Origin: an uncultured Ruminococcus sp.
GTDB taxonomy: Bacteria > Bacillota > Clostridia > Oscillospirales > Acutalibacteraceae
Assembly (NCBI GenBank): GCA_944415425.1
Contig: CALYBP010000001.1
Location: 1 to 64,000, forward strand
Direction of reading: 5' to 3'
Length of the DNA: 64,000 nt
Part shown: positions 14,941 through 49,071 of the stretch, in pieces
How the letters are laid out: each line of letters begins with the position of its first letter
Position numbering within the stretch: the stretch's first letter is position 1
Program-made: the position numbers and the translations under genes
The notes under the pieces: model-generated
Seen by the model: only the letters and a program-made list of their open reading frames with translations
The model's database searches: none
Told to the model about the DNA's origin: nothing

Positions 14941-15026
14941 ATTAAGAGTATTTTACGGCATACTTTGTTTATCTATGCTTTATTCCTTACGCTGAATACT
15001 AAGAATTGTACAGAAAGGAAATTGTT

Positions 15027-16370
15027 GTGAAACAGGTAAAAGAAGTAAATCTTACTGAGGGTAATATTTTAAAATCGCTTATTTCTTTTGCTTTTCCTGT
15101 GTTGTGCGCCCTGTTTTTGCAGGCAATGTACGGTGCGGCTGACCTTATTATTGTGGGACAGTTTGCTGGAACCAATGAACAGTCAGGCGTTGCGACAGGG
15201 AGCCAGCTGCTCAATATGATTACCATGGTCATAACCGGATTAACAATGGGAGTAACCGTATTTGTAGGTAATGCAATAGGCTCAAACGACAGAGAAAGAG
15301 CAAGCAAGGGAATAGGCAGCGGAATTGCAGTATTTGCCGTTGTAGCTGTTGCCGTTACAGTTATAATTGTTCCGAGCAGCGACATATTAACGGTTGTTAT
15401 GCACGCTCCGAAGGAGGCGGTTGCTCAAACAAGCGGATATGTTAGGATATGTGGTATCGGTACGGTGTTTATTGTCGCTTATAATGTAATGGGTGCTATT
15501 TTCAGAGGCGTCGGCGACTCAAAAACACCGCTTGTTACCGTTGCTGTTGCGTGTGTAATTAATATTACGGCGGATTTGATTTTAGTAGGTTTGTTCGGGT
15601 TAGGCGCCGTTGGCGCGGCTATTGCAACCGTTACGGCGCAGGCAATCAGCGTGATCTGTTCTCTCTGGTTTATAGGAAAAAAGAATTTGCCGTTTGATTT
15701 TTCTTTAAAATATATCCGCTTTGACGGAGTTAGTGTAAAGCGAATTTTGTTTGTCGGAATACCTATTGCGCTGCAGGAACTGCTCGTCCAGTTTTCCTTT
15801 TTGTTTATTCAGGTTGTTGTCAACGGTATGGGTGTAACGGCGTCTGCCGCTGCGGGAGTGGCGGAAAAAGTATGCATATTCTTAATGCTTGTGGCGTCTG
15901 CTTATATGCAGTCTATTTCTGCTTTTGTAGCACAAAACAACGGTGCGGGCCGCTTTGACCGCTCAAGAAGCGCTTTGTTTTACGGAATTAAAACAGCATT
16001 TGTTTCGGGCTGCATAATGGGTACTCTGGCGTTTTTTGCAGGAAATATACTGTCTATGGCTTTTTCAAACGAGGCAAGCGTTATAGCAGCATCTCATGAT
16101 TATCTGAAAGCGTACGCTATCGACTGTTTGCTTACCGCCGTGCTGTTTTGCTTTGTAGGCTTTTTCAACGGATGCTCAAAGACGGTGTTTGTTATGATTC
16201 AGAGCTTGATAGGTGCGTTTGTTGTAAGAATACCTGTCGTTTATATTATGAGTCAAATCGGAGTTACTTCGCTGTTTTATATCGGGCTTGCAACGCCCGT
16301 ATCGTCGGTTGCCGAAATAATTATGTGTATAATTGCTTACCGGATTTATAAAGTCAGAAGAAAAATATAG
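15027..16370 (+). CDS. MATE-family multidrug/guanidinium efflux transporter
   Basis: This 447-residue integral membrane protein belongs to the MATE (NorM/DinF/MepA) branch. About twelve hydrophobic helices are arranged as two similar halves, beginning with ALFLQAMYGAADLIIVGQFAG. These pumps extrude cationic compounds using Na+ or H+ gradients. The start is taken as GTG at 15027 after AGAAAGGAA; a TTG seven codons earlier is open but lacks a ribosome site. The leader carries the candidate guanidine-IV switch, which suggests guanidinium or a related cation as substrate. Confidence 0.92.
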   Translation: MKQVKEVNLTEGNILKSLISFAFPVLCALFLQAMYGAADLIIVGQFAGTNEQSGVATGSQLLNMITMVITGLTMGVTVFVGNAIGSNDRERASKGIGSGIAVFAVVAVAVTVIIVPSSDILTVVMHAPKEAVAQTSGYVRICGIGTVFIVAYNVMGAIFRGVGDSKTPLVTVAVACVINITADLILVGLFGLGAVGAAIATVTAQAISVICSLWFIGKKNLPFDFSLKYIRFDGVSVKRILFVGIPIALQELLVQFSFLFIQVVVNGMGVTASAAAGVAEKVCIFLMLVASAYMQSISAFVAQNNGAGRFDRSRSALFYGIKTAFVSGCIMGTLAFFAGNILSMAFSNEASVIAASHDYLKAYAIDCLLTAVLFCFVGFFNGCSKTVFVMIQSLIGAFVVRIPVVYIMSQIGVTSLFYIGLATPVSSVAEIIMCIIAYRIYKVRRKI

Positions 16371-16430: not shown

Positions 16431-16530
16431 AAAAAGTTGAGTTCATCGACATGCAATTCGAGCGGACAGGTTAATATTATCAAACTTTCTTTGCCCGACT
16501 GTTTTCGAGCAATTTCCTATAAAGAAAAAA
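16431..16530 (+). repeat. dispersed intergenic repeat, copy A
   Basis: This is a ~100-bp unit bounded by short A-runs. It is about 86% identical to copy B (46922-47022) and roughly 70% identical to copy C on the other strand (34157-34256). It contains a terminal hairpin (GTTGA/TCGAC, 16436-16450), a near-palindrome around TTAATATTATCAA, and a TTCGAGC motif repeated near 16458 and 16504. Its right end meets the U-tract of the lysC terminator. No open frame is seen. Confidence 0.85.
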
Positions 16531-16552
16531 TCAGGCAAGCTTGGCTTGCCTG
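16530..16552 (-). terminator. intrinsic terminator of lysC
   Basis: On the minus strand a 9-bp stem CAGGCAAGC/GCTTGCCTG with a 3-nt loop is followed by ATTTTTTCTTTAT. That U-tract coincides with the edge of repeat copy A. Confidence 0.88.
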
Positions 16553-16568
16553 ATAACTTCTAATCGAA

Positions 16569-17774
16569 TCAGTCAAAGAATTTTGAGTGAATAGCGGCAA
16601 CAGCCTTATCAGCGTCTTCAACATCAATGAGAACAGAAACCTTGATTTCGCTTGTGCTGATCATCTGAATGTTAACCTGTGCGTCATAGAGAGCCTCAAA
16701 CATCTTTGTAGCAACGCCTGCGTGGCTTTCCATTCCTGCACCGACAATAGAAATTTTAGCAACATTGTCGTCATAAAGAATTTCAGCGGCACCGAGGTTT
16801 TCCATATAATCCTTGAGGCACTCAACCGCTTCGTTGCCTCTGTCTTTTGCTACGGTAAAGCTTATATCCTTTTTGCCGTCGTGACCGATTGACTGGAGGA
16901 TAATATCAACATTAATATCCTTTGCCGAAAGTTTTGAGAACATTTTAAAAGCAAGACCGGGAAGGTTCGGAATACCTGTAACAGAAATTCTTGCTACCTC
17001 TGTATCTTTAGCAACACCGCTGATTAACATTTTCTCCATTTTTGTTTTCTCCTTTACAATAGTACCCGAAGCCTTTGCCATACTTGAAAGTACTTCAAGC
17101 TCAATGTTATATTTTTTAGCCATCTCAACCGAACGGTTGTTAAGAACCTGAGCTCCCAAAGTTGCAAGCTCAAGCATTTCATCATAAGATATTTCCTTTA
17201 GTTTCTTAGCGTTTTTAACTTTTCTCGGATCAGCCGTGTAGACGCCCTCAACATCTGTGTAAATCTGACACAAATCAGCGTGCATTGAAGCAGCAATTGC
17301 TACTGCGCTGGTATCTGAGCCGCCTCTTCCGAGAGTAGTGATGTCACCGTATTTGGAAATGCCCTGGAATCCTGCGACTATCACAATGTTTTTCTTATCA
17401 AGCTCGCTTTTGATTCTCGAAGCGTCTACTCTTTTGATTCTTGCGCTTGTGTGCGCCGAAGTTGTTTCAAAGCCTGCCTGCCAGCCCAGCAGTGATACTG
17501 CGTGGTAGCCGAGTTTCTCAATAGCCATAGCAAGAAGCGCAATAGAAATCTGTTCGCCTGCCGCAAGAAGCATATCTTTTTCTCTTTTTGAAGCGTTGGG
17601 ATTGATCTCCTGAGCCTTTTCGATAAGGTCATCAGTAGTGTCGCCCTGCGCTGATACAACGACCACTACATCGTTGCCCTTAGCAAATGTGTCTGTCACG
17701 ATTTTTGCGACATTCATAACACGCTCGGCGTTTGCAACAGAGCTGCCGCCGAATTTTTGAACTATCAAACTCAT
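16569..17774 (-). CDS. lysC: aspartate kinase
   Basis: This 401-residue enzyme phosphorylates aspartate, the first step to lysine, threonine, methionine and diaminopimelate. The N-terminal kinase motif is VQKFGGSSVANAER. The FTTLGRGGSDTSA-type segment reads ITTLGRGGSDTSAVA (about 149-163). Two C-terminal ACT domains (about 265-401) imply feedback inhibition by an end product. The ATG at 17774 follows GAGGAG at workable spacing; the ATG three codons earlier is too close to it. It lies 21 nt after hom, so the pair forms a threonine/lysine-branch operon. Confidence 0.96.
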   Translation of the reverse strand: MSLIVQKFGGSSVANAERVMNVAKIVTDTFAKGNDVVVVVSAQGDTTDDLIEKAQEINPNASKREKDMLLAAGEQISIALLAMAIEKLGYHAVSLLGWQAGFETTSAHTSARIKRVDASRIKSELDKKNIVIVAGFQGISKYGDITTLGRGGSDTSAVAIAASMHADLCQIYTDVEGVYTADPRKVKNAKKLKEISYDEMLELATLGAQVLNNRSVEMAKKYNIELEVLSSMAKASGTIVKEKTKMEKMLISGVAKDTEVARISVTGIPNLPGLAFKMFSKLSAKDINVDIILQSIGHDGKKDISFTVAKDRGNEAVECLKDYMENLGAAEILYDDNVAKISIVGAGMESHAGVATKMFEALYDAQVNIQMISTSEIKVSVLIDVEDADKAVAAIHSKFFD

Positions 17775-17795
17775 GTACTCCATACTCCTCTTTTA

Positions 17796-32923: not shown

Positions 32924-33067
32924 TATTTGCACAATAGTGTGAATATAAATTCGCTGTTCTAAAGACAGCAGGTGCGTAAGCATAAAGGGGTATCCCACCT
33001 GCCGAGGAAGATGCAAATTACATTTTGTGTTTTTGCAGCCGTCCGAGGCTTCGGGCGGCTGTTTTTT
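32924..33067 (+). ncRNA. ribosomal protein L10 leader with attenuator
   Basis: An outer stem ATTTGCA...TGCAAAT (about 32924-33019) encloses a CTGT/ACAG-type hairpin (32954-32970) and AGGTG...CCACCTGCCGAGGA (32970-33008). This is the arrangement of the L10(L12)4-binding leader known in Firmicutes. A GC-rich terminator (about 33036-33061) with TTTTTT follows before rplJ. Bound L10-L12 complex is expected to favour termination. Confidence 0.85.
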
Positions 33068-33102
33068 ATGAACTGCGTAAAAAACATTCGGAGGTGAAAT
33101 AA

Positions 33103-33730: not shown

Positions 33731-34108
33731 ATGGCATCTGAAAAAATTACTGCTATTATTGAAGAATTAAAAGGCCTCACAGTTTTGGAGCTTTCTGAGC
33801 TTGTACACGCTGTTGAGGATGAGTTTGGTGTATCCGCTGCTGCTGCTGTTGCAGTTGCAGGTCCTGTTGCTGACGGTGGTGCAGCAGCTGCTGAGCAGAC
33901 TGAGTTTGATGTTGTACTTAAGGGTGCAGGCGGAAACAAGATTGCTGTTATCAAGGTTGTTCGTGAGGTAACAGGTCTTGGTCTTAAGGAAGCTAAGGCT
34001 CTCGTAGACGAAGCTCCTAAGACACTTAAGGAAGCTGTTTCTAAGGACGATGCTGAAGCTATGAAGGCTAAGCTCGAAGAAGCAGGCGCAGAAGTAGAAT
34101 TGAAGTAA
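33731..34108 (+). CDS. rplL: 50S ribosomal protein L7/L12
   Basis: This 125-residue stalk protein has an N-terminal dimerisation helix (about 1-30), an Ala/Val/Gly-rich hinge (about 35-52) and a C-terminal factor-binding domain with [21 protein letters not shown] (about 71-91). CGGAGGTAAA precedes the ATG. It ends the operon. Confidence 0.98.
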
Positions 34109-34125
34109 TTTTTACTGATTCTTTG

Positions 34126-34161
34126 ACGGCTGTCCGTGAGGACGGCCGTTTTTTTTTTTTT
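34126..34161 (+). terminator. intrinsic terminator of the ribosomal protein operon
   Basis: A 10-bp stem (34126-34135 with 34140-34149) closes a GTGA tetraloop and is followed by a run of 12-13 T. The T-run coincides with the edge of repeat copy C. Confidence 0.95.
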
Positions 34162-34256
34162 GCGTTATAGTAAACTGCTTGAAAACGGTCGGATAAGGAA
34201 CATTTGATAATTCAACTTGTCTGTTCAAACTACGGTCGATTTTCCCGACATTTTTA
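34157..34256 (-). repeat. dispersed intergenic repeat, copy C (reverse orientation)
   Basis: Read on the minus strand this is a diverged copy of the units at 16431-16530 and 46922-47022. The terminal hairpin GTCG...CGAC, GAACAGACAAGTTGA, ATTATCAAA, CCGAC and TTCAAGCAGTTT are kept in the same order, at roughly 70% identity. It begins in the T-run of the rplL terminator and ends in a second T-run at 34251-34255. No open frame is seen. Confidence 0.75.
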
Positions 34257-43747: not shown

Positions 43748-43749
43748 TA

Positions 43750-43852
43750 TGGTGTTATATGACTGACGGAACAGTGGAGTTAACCACAGTGGAGTATAAC
43801 TTTTATAAGCCGACCGTCTGGGCGAAAGCTCAGATTAAGTCGGCTTTTTTTG
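43750..43852 (+). promoter_or_regulatory. ZTP (pfl-motif) riboswitch with intrinsic terminator
   Basis: P1 is GTTATA/TATAAC (43753-43758 with 43795-43800). The conserved ACTGACGGAACAGTGGAG-type core and a GTGG/CCAC P2 follow. Then comes the pseudoknot region CCGACCGTCTGGGC (43810-43823) with a CTGGGC-GAAA-GCTCAG hairpin. AAGCCGAC pairs with GTCGGCTT (43807-43814 with 43839-43846) and is followed by T7 as the terminator. This matches the pfl motif, which senses ZTP/ZMP and so low 10-formyl-THF. It lies just upstream of pflB. Confidence 0.9.
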
Positions 43853-46158: not shown

Positions 46159-46188
46159 TAATATATATGATGAGTGCAGGTGAATTCT

Positions 46189-46923
46189 ATGACAGGAAAA
46201 ATTCATTCGTTTGAATCGTTTGGCACGGTTGACGGACCGGGCGTAAGATTTGTTGTGTTTTTTCAGGGATGTCCGATGAGGTGCCTTTACTGCCACAATC
46301 CGGACACTTGGGCATCGGATGCGGGTGAGGAATATACCGCCGAACAGATTATTGAAAAAATACAGAGAAACAGACCGTTTTATACAACGGGAGGCATAAC
46401 CGCGACGGGCGGGGAGCCTATGTTACAGCTTGATTTTTTGATTGATTTGTTTGAGCTTGCAAAAAGCAACAATATAAATACCTGCCTTGATACATCGGGA
46501 GTTTTATTTGACAGAAAAAATACCGAGAGAATGAAGAAAATTGACAGGCTTTTATCTGTATGCGACCTTGTAATGCTTGATATTAAGCATATTGTCAATG
46601 AGGAACACAAAAAGCTTACGGGACACGGCAATGAAAATATCCTTGATTTTGCACGGTATCTCAACGAAAAGAATGTGAAAATGAGGATAAGACATGTAAT
46701 TGTTCCGAAAATCACATATATAGACGACGAGCTAAAAAGATTGGGTGAGTTTTTAAAGCCGTTTAAAAATATCGAGAAAATCGAAACGCTGCCTTATCAT
46801 ACTCTCGGCAAGGTAAAGTATGAAAATCTGGGTATTGAATACCCTCTCGGTGACACTCCTCAGCTTTCGGAAGACGACGCAAAAAAAGCCCTTGGAATTA
46901 TTGAAAAGGCTATGAACAGTTAA
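46189..46923 (+). CDS. pflA: pyruvate formate-lyase activating enzyme
   Basis: This 244-residue radical SAM enzyme installs the glycyl radical on PflB. The 4Fe-4S motif is GCPMRCLYCHNPDTW (CxxxCxxC, about 30-37), followed by TATGGEPMLQ (about 74). The N-terminus HSFESFGTVDGPGVRFVVF is typical. The ATG at 46189 follows CAGGTG; an in-frame GTG five codons earlier lacks a ribosome site. Confidence 0.97.
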   Translation: MTGKIHSFESFGTVDGPGVRFVVFFQGCPMRCLYCHNPDTWASDAGEEYTAEQIIEKIQRNRPFYTTGGITATGGEPMLQLDFLIDLFELAKSNNINTCLDTSGVLFDRKNTERMKKIDRLLSVCDLVMLDIKHIVNEEHKKLTGHGNENILDFARYLNEKNVKMRIRHVIVPKITYIDDELKRLGEFLKPFKNIEKIETLPYHTLGKVKYENLGIEYPLGDTPQLSEDDAKKALGIIEKAMNS

Positions 46924-47022
46924 AAAAGTCGAGTACCTCGACACGCAGTTCGAGCAGACAGGTTGATATTATCAAACCTTCTTTGCCCGACAATTTTTGA
47001 GCAGTTTCACATAAAGTAAAAA
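46922..47022 (+). repeat. dispersed intergenic repeat, copy B
   Basis: This ~100-bp unit begins within the pflA stop region and ends in the A-run that is the U-tract of the mnmA terminator. It is about 86% identical to copy A (16431-16530). It has a GTCGAG/CTCGAC hairpin at the left end, a GGTTGATATTATCAAACC palindrome in the middle and a repeated TTYGAGCAG (near 46949 and 46996). Confidence 0.87.
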
Positions 47023-47047
47023 CGGTCGATGTTTTGTCATCGACCGT
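47022..47047 (-). terminator. terminator of mnmA, likely bidirectional
   Basis: A perfect 10-bp stem (47022-47031 with 47038-47047) has a 6-nt loop. TTTTATTT follows on the plus strand and TTTTACTTTATG on the minus strand. Confidence 0.88.
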
Positions 47048-47059
47048 TTTATTTATATT

Positions 47060-48145
47060 TTATTTCGGTGATTTGCAGATAGTGCCGCCGCCCACCACAT
47101 ATTCGCCGTCGTACAAAACGACGGCCTGACCGTATGAAATGGCTCTTTGCGGTTCGTCAAAAACAATGTGCAGGGTGTTTTCGTCAAGCTGTTCAACCGT
47201 CGCGGGCTGTTCGCTTTGATTATATCTCACTCTTGCTTTTATTTTCATGGGTTTGTCAATTTTTTCGCAGGAGATAAGGTTTATATCGGAAGCGTAAAGC
47301 TCTTTTGAGAAAAGGCTTTCGTTGTCACAAAGAATTACCTCGTTTTTTTCAAGATCCTTTTTCTTGACATACATCGGGTGCGGCAGTGCAAGACCCAAGC
47401 CTTTGCGCTGCCCTACGGTATAGCGGATAATTCCTTTGTGCTCTCCCAAAACCCTGCCGTTTTCGTCAACAAAATTTCCGTGCGGATAGATTTTTCCCGT
47501 GTACTGCTCTATAAATTTTGCGTAGTCGCCGTCGGGGACAAAGCAAATATCCTGACTGTCACGCTTTGCCGCATTTATTAGTCCTAAATTTTCCGCAATC
47601 TTACGGGTTTGCTCCTTCTTCATATTTCCGAGCGGAAACAATGTTCTTGAAAGCTGCTTTTGGGTGAGTGAATAAAGAACATAGCTCTGATCTTTTGATA
47701 TATCAGCCGATTTTTTAAGCAAAAATCTTTTTGAGTTTTCATCATACTCAATTACGGCGTAATGTCCCGTAACCACATAATCGAATTCAAGCTCATCTGC
47801 TCTTTGCATAAGCTTTTCAAACTTTATATATCTGTTGCAGTCAATACATGGATTAGGTGTTGTGCCGTTTTCATATGCGCTTATAAATCGTGATATTACA
47901 TTCTCCCTGAAGCTGTCCTTGAAGTTGTAGACATAATACGGAATACCAAGCTTGTAACAAACGCTGCGTGCGTCGTCAATATCATCAAGCGAGCAGCAGG
48001 TTTTTTCTTTTTTTTCGCCTATGTCCTCATTGTCAAAGAGTTTAAGCGTAATTCCAGTTGCGTCAAAACCCTGTTCTTTTATAAGATAAGCGGCAACCGA
48101 GCTGTCAACTCCTCCGCTCATTGCAATTAAAGCTTTTTTCTTCAT
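47060..48145 (-). CDS. mnmA: tRNA-specific 2-thiouridylase
   Basis: This 361-residue enzyme thiolates U34 of Lys, Glu and Gln tRNAs. It has the PP-loop AMSGGVDSSVAAYLI (about 8-22), the first cysteine in NPCIDCNRYIKF (about 99-110) and the second in SQDICFVPDGDYAKF (about 201). TVGQRKGLG (about 250) is also conserved. The ATG at 48145 gives the family-typical N-terminus; an ATG four codons upstream, overlapping the nadA stop, is possible. It lies directly after nadA. Confidence 0.95.
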   Translation of the reverse strand: MKKKALIAMSGGVDSSVAAYLIKEQGFDATGITLKLFDNEDIGEKKEKTCCSLDDIDDARSVCYKLGIPYYVYNFKDSFRENVISRFISAYENGTTPNPCIDCNRYIKFEKLMQRADELEFDYVVTGHYAVIEYDENSKRFLLKKSADISKDQSYVLYSLTQKQLSRTLFPLGNMKKEQTRKIAENLGLINAAKRDSQDICFVPDGDYAKFIEQYTGKIYPHGNFVDENGRVLGEHKGIIRYTVGQRKGLGLALPHPMYVKKKDLEKNEVILCDNESLFSKELYASDINLISCEKIDKPMKIKARVRYNQSEQPATVEQLDENTLHIVFDEPQRAISYGQAVVLYDGEYVVGGGTICKSPK

Positions 48146-48156
48146 ATAGATTACCA

Positions 48157-49071
48157 TCAACCGAGTCTGATCATTTCGTCAATACACTTTTTTGCGTCGT
48201 TTATTGTTGACTCATCCAAAATTATTTCTTCGCCGCCCTTGCCCATAAGACAGTTGTAAACATCAACAAGAGTTGTCGTTTTCATATTCGGACAAATCAG
48301 TTTGTTTGAGAGAATATAAAAATTCTTGTCGGGGCACATATACTGCAAGTGCTCTGCTATGCTGATTTCCGTGCCGATAATAAAATCGGTTTTATCGGAC
48401 TTTACGGCGTAGTCCATAATTCCCGATGTGGAGCCCACATAATCCGCCATTGAAACGACTTCCGGCGTACATTCGGGATGCACAAGAAGCTCTGCACCGG
48501 GATGCATGGCTTTTGCTCTTTTTACGTCGTCTGTGTTTACGCAGGCATGAATCGGGCAGCCGCCGTTTAAAAGCTTGATGTTTTTATCGGGGCACTGCTT
48601 TGCAACATAATCTCCCAAGTTGCAGTCGGGGATAAATAAAATATTCTTCTCATCCATATTATTAACAATTTTTACTGCGGATGAGCTTGTTACACAAACA
48701 TCGCAAATAGTTTTCAAGTCGGCTGTTGTGTTTATATATGCGACAACAGCGTAGTCAGGATACATTTTCTTGACCTGAGAAATGAGCTGTTTGTCCATTT
48801 GGTCGGCCATACTGCATCCGGCAGTCGGCTGCGCAAGATATACCCTTTTGTCGGGTGAAAGTATTTTGCAGGTTTCCGCCATAAAGCGTACGCCGCACAT
48901 GAGGATATTTTTGTTTTCGGTTTTGCTTGCATCAACGCTGAGTTTATAGCTGTCGCCTGTGTAATCGGCAACCTCTAAGATTTCATGAGCCTGATAGCTG
49001 TGTGCGAGCACGCAAACATCCTTTTCTTTTTTTAGCTGCATAATTTTTTCTTGAAGCTGCGATGTAGTCAT
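48157..49071 (-). CDS. nadA: quinolinate synthase A
   Basis: This 304-residue Fe-S enzyme condenses iminoaspartate with dihydroxyacetone phosphate in NAD synthesis. The three expected cluster cysteines are seen in LMCGVRFMAET (about 80), in the STADLKTICDVCVTSSSA and GCPIHACVN region, and in ICPNMKTTTL (about 267). AHSYQAHEILEVADYTGDS opens the fold. The ATG at 49071 follows GAAAGGATT. nadB and nadC are not in the window; the next gene in the operon is mnmA. Confidence 0.95.
   Translation of the reverse strand: MTTSQLQEKIMQLKKEKDVCVLAHSYQAHEILEVADYTGDSYKLSVDASKTENKNILMCGVRFMAETCKILSPDKRVYLAQPTAGCSMADQMDKQLISQVKKMYPDYAVVAYINTTADLKTICDVCVTSSSAVKIVNNMDEKNILFIPDCNLGDYVAKQCPDKNIKLLNGGCPIHACVNTDDVKRAKAMHPGAELLVHPECTPEVVSMADYVGSTSGIMDYAVKSDKTDFIIGTEISIAEHLQYMCPDKNFYILSNKLICPNMKTTTLVDVYNCLMGKGGEEIILDESTINDAKKCIDEMIRLG

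Follow-up and report, generated by a model that had tools for sequence, protein, structure and literature searches.

The 95-base non-coding repeat that we describe from gut or rumen Ruminococcus is, we are confident, real, mobile, structured and targeted to terminators, and it is a new family within a known kind, the small non-autonomous repeats. Its copies are inserted in the T-tract immediately behind the hairpin of an intrinsic terminator, in most cases with the orientation of the transcript that ends there. Comparison with the transposons of the genus leads us to think that this non-autonomous element may well be moved as single-stranded DNA by a candidate Y1 HUH (IS200/IS605-type) transposase acting in trans.

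Copies in the window and across the genus

A family profile built from 36 copies found exactly three copies of the 95-bp element in the window (the whole 64,000-nucleotide stretch of DNA analyzed), and all three, including the inverted copy C, lie where the first-pass annotation had placed them. Copy A (16431..16530, minus strand; profile E 1.9e-29), which comprises the ~95-bp unit and the shared T-runs, is flanked by open reading frames for a MATE protein (15006-16370, plus strand) and lysC (16569-17783, minus strand). Copy B (46922..47022, minus strand; E 1.1e-31) has a radical-SAM activase gene (46174-46923, plus strand) and an mnmA-like gene (47060-48160, minus strand) as neighbors, and the diverged copy C (34157..34256, plus strand; E 1.4e-19) is located downstream of rplL (33731-34108, plus strand). 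Copies A and B are 85% identical across 100 bp, and copy C is ~76% identical to copy A across 86 bp. No Rfam family scored above its gathering score at any window copy, and further copies gave weak chance matches only. Elsewhere in the window, a ribosomal protein L10 leader (32941-33074) and a ZMP/ZTP riboswitch (43749-43830) are ordinary Rfam matches.

The suggestion that the repeat is dispersed, with at least a handful of copies genome-wide, holds well in its own genome (G000, a 1.73-Mb draft in 81 contigs), where whole-genome BLASTN returned 39 places matching copy A and the profile search at least 66 copies; the sister species G029 has 44 copies among the matches listed. Copies also form head-to-tail arrays with a 95-bp period, in which the T-run is common to adjoining units, as would be expected if each element end, a hairpin with a T-run, is a new target. 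Ten G000 contigs (C1, C6, C11, C20, C24, C28, C34, C44, C45 and C68) end inside or beside copies; the arrays thus break the assembly, so the true copy number is probably higher, and with about ten contig ends in or near copies, the element explains a number of the breaks between contigs. In G029, L186 (at the end of contig C104) and L195 (contig C25) have a common thrS-leader flank after a repeat array, probably because the repeat led to a mis-join. Half-size copies of 47 bp at G000:C9:21312 and G000:C34:18581 were apparently made by deletion between internal CTGCTCGAA direct repeats.

By the profile search, the family is present in 15 of the 36 genomes of the genus, G000 included, a count that contains some low-scoring matches (e.g. 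in G005 and G018) which by inspection are a different hairpin repeat. Copy numbers per genome, among the matches listed, are at least 66, at least 66, 46, 44, 17, 13, 11, 11 and 7, followed by a few singles. The 22-mer 5' end of the element is found in 14 of 150 genomes of the genus, while the same sequence read backwards, used as a control, is found in none. The profile had zero matches in 23 genomes of the order that belong to other genera, and a pattern scan of 84,980 species placed the element core almost entirely within uncultured Ruminococcus MAGs, the exceptions being one Clostridia-labelled contig and one chance-like Rhodospirillaceae contig. Plasmid, phage and viral collections gave no match, and we found no description of the family in the open-access papers searched.

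Two other repeats were noticed during these searches. One is a second family of ~100-220 bp that has the same 5' end as the 95-bp element, TTTTTACTTTATAGGAAACTGCTC, with an inverted copy of it inside, continues as CTCCGCTCAGTTTGCTGC...GCAGCAACGAGCGATGG, with a GC-rich hairpin and TTTCTT at its end; its loci, often behind terminators, are L217, L230, L236 and L239 (G031), L222, L237, L240 and L244 (G005), and L216, L220, L221 and L227. The other, GGTCGGGCAGA...TCTGCCCGACC, forms a hairpin and has TTGAAAATTGACAATTGA-like tracts on its flanks; it is found at L053 and L067 (G005), L057 and L069 (G018), L058 (G021) and L056 (G027).

Anatomy and conserved pairing

Read on the minus strand of copy A, the 95-bp unit is ACTTTATAGGAAACTGCTCG...GTCGAGGCACTCGAC-TTTTT or, more fully, ACTTTATAGGAAACTGCTCGAAAACGGTCGGGCAGAGAAGGTTTGATAATATCAACCTGTCTGCTCGAATTGCGTGTCGAGGCACTCGAC-TTTTT. 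The element begins at a T-run that belongs to an intrinsic terminator of the host, and its 3' end is a terminator-like hairpin of its own followed by a T-run. In copy A, all on the minus strand, the 5' end at the T-run (16510..16530; TTTTTTCTTTATAGGAAATTG) is followed by an alternative first hairpin, H1 (16490..16512; TTGCTCG...CGGGCAA), the central hairpin H2 (16458..16498; TCGGGCAAA ... TCCGCTCGA, with an inner stem) and the 3' terminator-like hairpin H3 (16436..16450), which runs into TTTTT (16431-16435). H3 of copy B is at 46928..46942 (minus strand; GTCGAGGTACTCGAC and a T-run), and H3 of copy C, at 34235..34249 (plus strand; GTCGATTTTCCCGAC), is imperfect in alignment A2. The order of parts originally proposed needs to be reread: its 'terminal A-runs' are actually the T-runs of terminators, and the functional polarity is that of the minus strand of copy A. 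The palindromic core TTGATATTATCAA corresponds only to the loop of the central hairpin, and distant species do not keep it.

Alignment A2, which contains 100 copies from many species, keeps the central hairpin (TCGGGCAGA/TCTGCTCGA with the inner stem) and the 3' hairpin with the T-run behind it, and it shows a near-invariant AAA immediately before the first hairpin (columns 19-21, ≥90% conserved). H2 with its inner stem and H3 are paired in 83.1% of cells and contain 156 double-change cells versus 75 in shuffled alignments, a number that none of 500 shuffles reached. H1 is paired in 90.9% of cells, with covariation marginally above the shuffles. A second sequence type, found in G001, G003, G009 and G144, has the 3' hairpin GCAGCC-CACC-GGCTGC-TTTTT, which in alignment A3 is 91.6% paired with 4 double changes versus 0.7 in shuffles. 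Both the conserved pairing and the structured nature of the element that the annotation had suspected are borne out by this covariation; a stand-alone RNA gene, which it had hinted at, is not needed for anything we observed.

Wobble pairs point to a strand. The central hairpin has 220 G.U versus 69 A.C cells on the minus-orientation strand, a count limited by founder effects, as many of the cells were inherited from a founder and are non-independent, and H3 has 34 G.U versus 25 A.C cells, with no clear strand bias. This suggests that the central structure acts on the minus-orientation strand, either as RNA or as single-stranded DNA. The plus strand, when folded with RNAalifold, gave a weak structure because the wobble pairs lie on the opposite strand, and we set this fold aside. 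We also rejected a long-range helix between the 5' TGCTCGA and the 3' hairpin, which appears in single folds and is lost in the G001 and G003 sequences. The 3' end of the element scores as an intrinsic terminator (in copy L011), with a terminal stem of 6 bp.

Insertion in the T-tracts of intrinsic terminators

The copies start precisely where a terminator hairpin of the host gives way to its T-run. In the window, the targets are the terminators of lysC and rplL and the one on the mnmA side. The lysC hairpin (16530..16554, minus strand; ATCAGGCAAGC-TTG-GCTTGCCTGAT) has its T-run joined to the 5' end of copy A, the hairpin targeted by copy B is at 47023..47046 (minus strand; CGGTCGATG...CATCGACCG), and the rplL hairpin (34125..34148, plus strand; GACGGCTGTCCGTGAGGACGGCCG) leads into the T-run at which copy C begins. 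Targets elsewhere include the 5S rRNA terminator, the terminators of T-box leaders and a terminator directly upstream of cas9. The last of these holds L010 (G000:C70, 449-548), which sits in the terminator of a tracrRNA-like RNA directly upstream of the cas9 start (MKYAIGIDAGIASVG).

A terminator-grade stem lies within 6 nt of the T-run at the 5' end in 55% of 136 copies, a figure lowered by tandem copies, for which the preceding copy supplies the upstream hairpin, a weaker one of 6 bp, and in 64% of those in G000 and G029. By comparison, such a stem accompanies 9% of the 1971 remaining T5-runs in these loci, and at the element's other end the value is 8%. Of the 58 assignable sites, 45 have their upstream gene and the element on one strand, and the median distance from stop codon to element is 48 nt. 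In other bacteria, purifying selection has enriched small repeats close to the 3' ends of genes (SPRITE, PMC3049150), and random insertion with survival only behind terminators could be invoked here as well. However, the junction is at the T-run itself, which is more specific than mere 3' intergenic space, the controls reach only 8-9%, and unrelated Y1 elements have the identical exact junction, so that we regard selection after random insertion as very unlikely.

Comparison with the sister species shows the sites before insertion. Six copies in G000 (L010, L011, L013, L027, L033 and copy B) have an empty counterpart in G029, and these filled and empty pairs show insertion in the T-tract and hence recent mobility. 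The G029 sequence at L010 is ATCTTTTTTAGGAGG, versus ATCTTTTTT-[element]-TTTTTTAGGAGG in G000, and the one at L011 is GACTTTTTTAAATAT, the same sequence being split by the element in G000. At L010, L011 and L013, the target is intact with zero bases lost, whereas the L027, L033 and copy B sites differ by a few bases from the empty form, which could be divergence. The empty site of copy B has flanks 92-93% identical and retains the host hairpin. L011 has the consensus sequence yet is absent from G029, implying that movement continued after the two species split. Other sites (lysC, 5S, L018/L200, L026/L060 and L039/L187) are filled in both species, and the rplL terminator, the site of copy C, is without the element in G029, G030 and others. 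An orthologous copy in G029 (L016/L294) has had its middle deleted between CTCGA repeats.

These empty sites, together with the dispersed and tandem copies and the patchy distribution, uphold the proposal of a non-autonomous mobile element. The conserved fold, the terminator-like 3' end and the position in 3' UTRs would equally be expected of a cis-acting or sRNA gene family with a host function, such as an extra terminator or RNA stability, that spread mainly by duplication or recombination. We give this highly improbable standing, since the repeat is patchy between close species and follows no consistent gene class, and since the clean empty sites and the internally deleted remnant L016/L294 better fit a mobile parasite.

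The junctions also bear on the type of transposition. Movement of a conventional MITE by a DDE transposase, with duplication of the T-run target, would account for the T-runs at L010 and L011, which are 6 long on both sides and also in the empty site, and the second family with the same 5' end (G005, G031, G012) does have an internal inverted copy of that end. In the 95-bp family, on the other hand, alignment A2 shows no terminal inverted repeats, the lengths of the left and right T-runs are weakly correlated (rho 0.25), and L027 has T-runs of 6 and 4 on its two sides. We found no convincing target duplication, the flanking T-run being indistinguishable from one carried by the element. A MITE would also leave the strict terminator targeting unexplained, and we consider it unlikely.

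Candidate mechanism and known systems

We searched for the enzyme that moves the element among the transposases and reverse transcriptases of the genus. Y1 transposase (PF01797) is present in some genomes of the genus, with zero matches in G000, G001, G005 and G008; G000 and G001 are among the copy-richest genomes, yet no Y1_Tnp gene was found in them. Multicopy IS genes are often lost from MAGs, and their absence is weak evidence. An IS91/Helitron-like rolling-circle element and an IS110-type element were rejected, Y2 transposase (PF04986) being absent in G000, G029 and G008 and IS110 transposase (PF02371) in G000 and G029.

The Y1 IS200-type elements of the genus were collected at L091-L102, L345 and L347, which represent several subfamilies and were drawn from G010, G011, G012, G016, G025, G028, G031, G033, G034 and G059. 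Of 13 sites inspected, 11 have the element directly behind an intrinsic terminator, and the right ends are a terminator-like hairpin with a T-run (for example CCACCGGCTATGCCGGTGGATTTTT and CCACCCGTTTGACGGGTGGTTTTGATT). We found no report of terminator targeting by IS200-type elements in the open-access papers searched. In G009, an IS200 right end is directly followed by the start of one repeat copy. None of 12 Y1 loci has an autonomous tnpA element that shares ends with the repeat; nhmmer of the repeat against the Y1 loci gave weak matches, the one at L092 being an adjoining copy of the repeat. A search for an autonomous partner with the same 5' end in 150 genomes of the genus (in G000 at 3 mismatches) returned only short elements. 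As the target and the architecture, and not the ends, are common to the repeat and the local Y1 elements, we favor single-strand HUH transposition in trans.

The exact end of the element raises another candidate. It coincides with the end of an intrinsically terminated transcript, the element has the sense of the upstream transcript with its structure biased to that strand, and group IIC introns are known to target terminators (PMC4424553), all of which would suit a SINE-like retroelement, in which a read-through transcript, stopped at the terminator of the element, undergoes reverse transcription at a nicked A-tract complementary to the target T-run. However, the sole reverse transcriptase found in G000 and in G029 is an Ec107-like retron RT with its own upstream msr/msd-like ncRNA region, which by inspection is unlike the 95-bp repeat and has no sequence link to it. 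No RT match was found in G005, G008, G009, G031 and G063-G066, and the 5' end of the element is precise, not variably truncated. A retroelement of this kind is thus doubtful, and we hold it distinctly unlikely that the repeat is a bacterial SINE, a tiny RNA retroposed into terminator T-tracts by a borrowed reverse transcriptase; were this true, transcription termination would both free the mobile RNA and mark its target. The retron itself is intact at L264 (1200-2310, G000:C30) and L263 (G029:C84) and nearly identical across the two species.

If a Y1 HUH enzyme moves the element in trans, the single-stranded element would be excised or copied and then inserted, with the 5' hairpin and the near-invariant AAA serving as the left-end signal and the 3' hairpin as the right-end signal. 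The T-run would be both the target and the right cleavage site. As the right end mimics the element's own target, a new copy could land directly behind an old one. A circular junction, right end to left end, would be expected to read ...CTCGACTTTTT followed directly by ACTTTATAGG. Landing behind a terminator would spare genes and add a second terminator.

The landing site of this small mobile repeat is thus a regulatory structure, the intrinsic terminator, which the element copies with its own end and can therefore stack behind itself. Its example shows how a parasite can multiply in a genome and leave the genes intact, and its insertions give gene ends a natural means of gaining second terminators. 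The identical landing site of the IS200-type elements of the genus suggests that the single-strand transposases here recognize a terminator hairpin or a T-tract as a safe place to land.

Several known systems resemble the element in part. Intrinsic terminator motifs are also the insertion sites of group IIC introns (PMC4424553), ribozymes that come with an RT, but the 95-bp element has no ribozyme, intron ends or RT, and its copies gave no Rfam group II match. The group II introns in G001, G030 and G144 are in coding sequence and not terminator-targeted, and we rejected them as relatives. We know of no terminator targeting by REPINs. REPINs and BIMEs with RAYT (PMC3116915, PMC2817692) are likewise ~100-bp hairpin repeats in many copies that use a Y1-type enzyme in trans; the 95-bp element differs in having no REP tetranucleotide or inverted REP pair, and no RAYT (PF01797) was found in G000. 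PATEs of IS200/IS605 (Y1 HUH; PMC7290912) share with the element the lack of terminal inverted repeats and of convincing target duplication, hairpins near both ends (in the 95-bp element, H2 and H3 covary and H1 does so marginally), insertion 3' of a short fixed sequence (here the T-run at the 5' junction) and a transposase required in trans. The 95-bp element has far more copies and tandem arrays, and its target is a structure with a T-tract, whereas that of PATEs is a tetra- or pentanucleotide only. To file the element as an IS200/IS605 PATE goes too far, because neither a matching autonomous element with shared ends nor a Y1 gene was found in G000. SPRITE of Streptococcus pneumoniae (PMC3049150) is also a small non-coding repeat with a terminator-like hairpin, a U-rich tail and AAAA/TTTT ends, which lies near gene 3' ends and is presumed parasitic. 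SPRITE, however, is itself a terminator with an 18-bp stem, while the 95-bp element has three hairpins, a 6-bp terminal stem and 95-bp arrays and sits behind an existing terminator, and SPRITE has no known empty sites (PMC3049150), whereas those of the 95-bp element are demonstrated.
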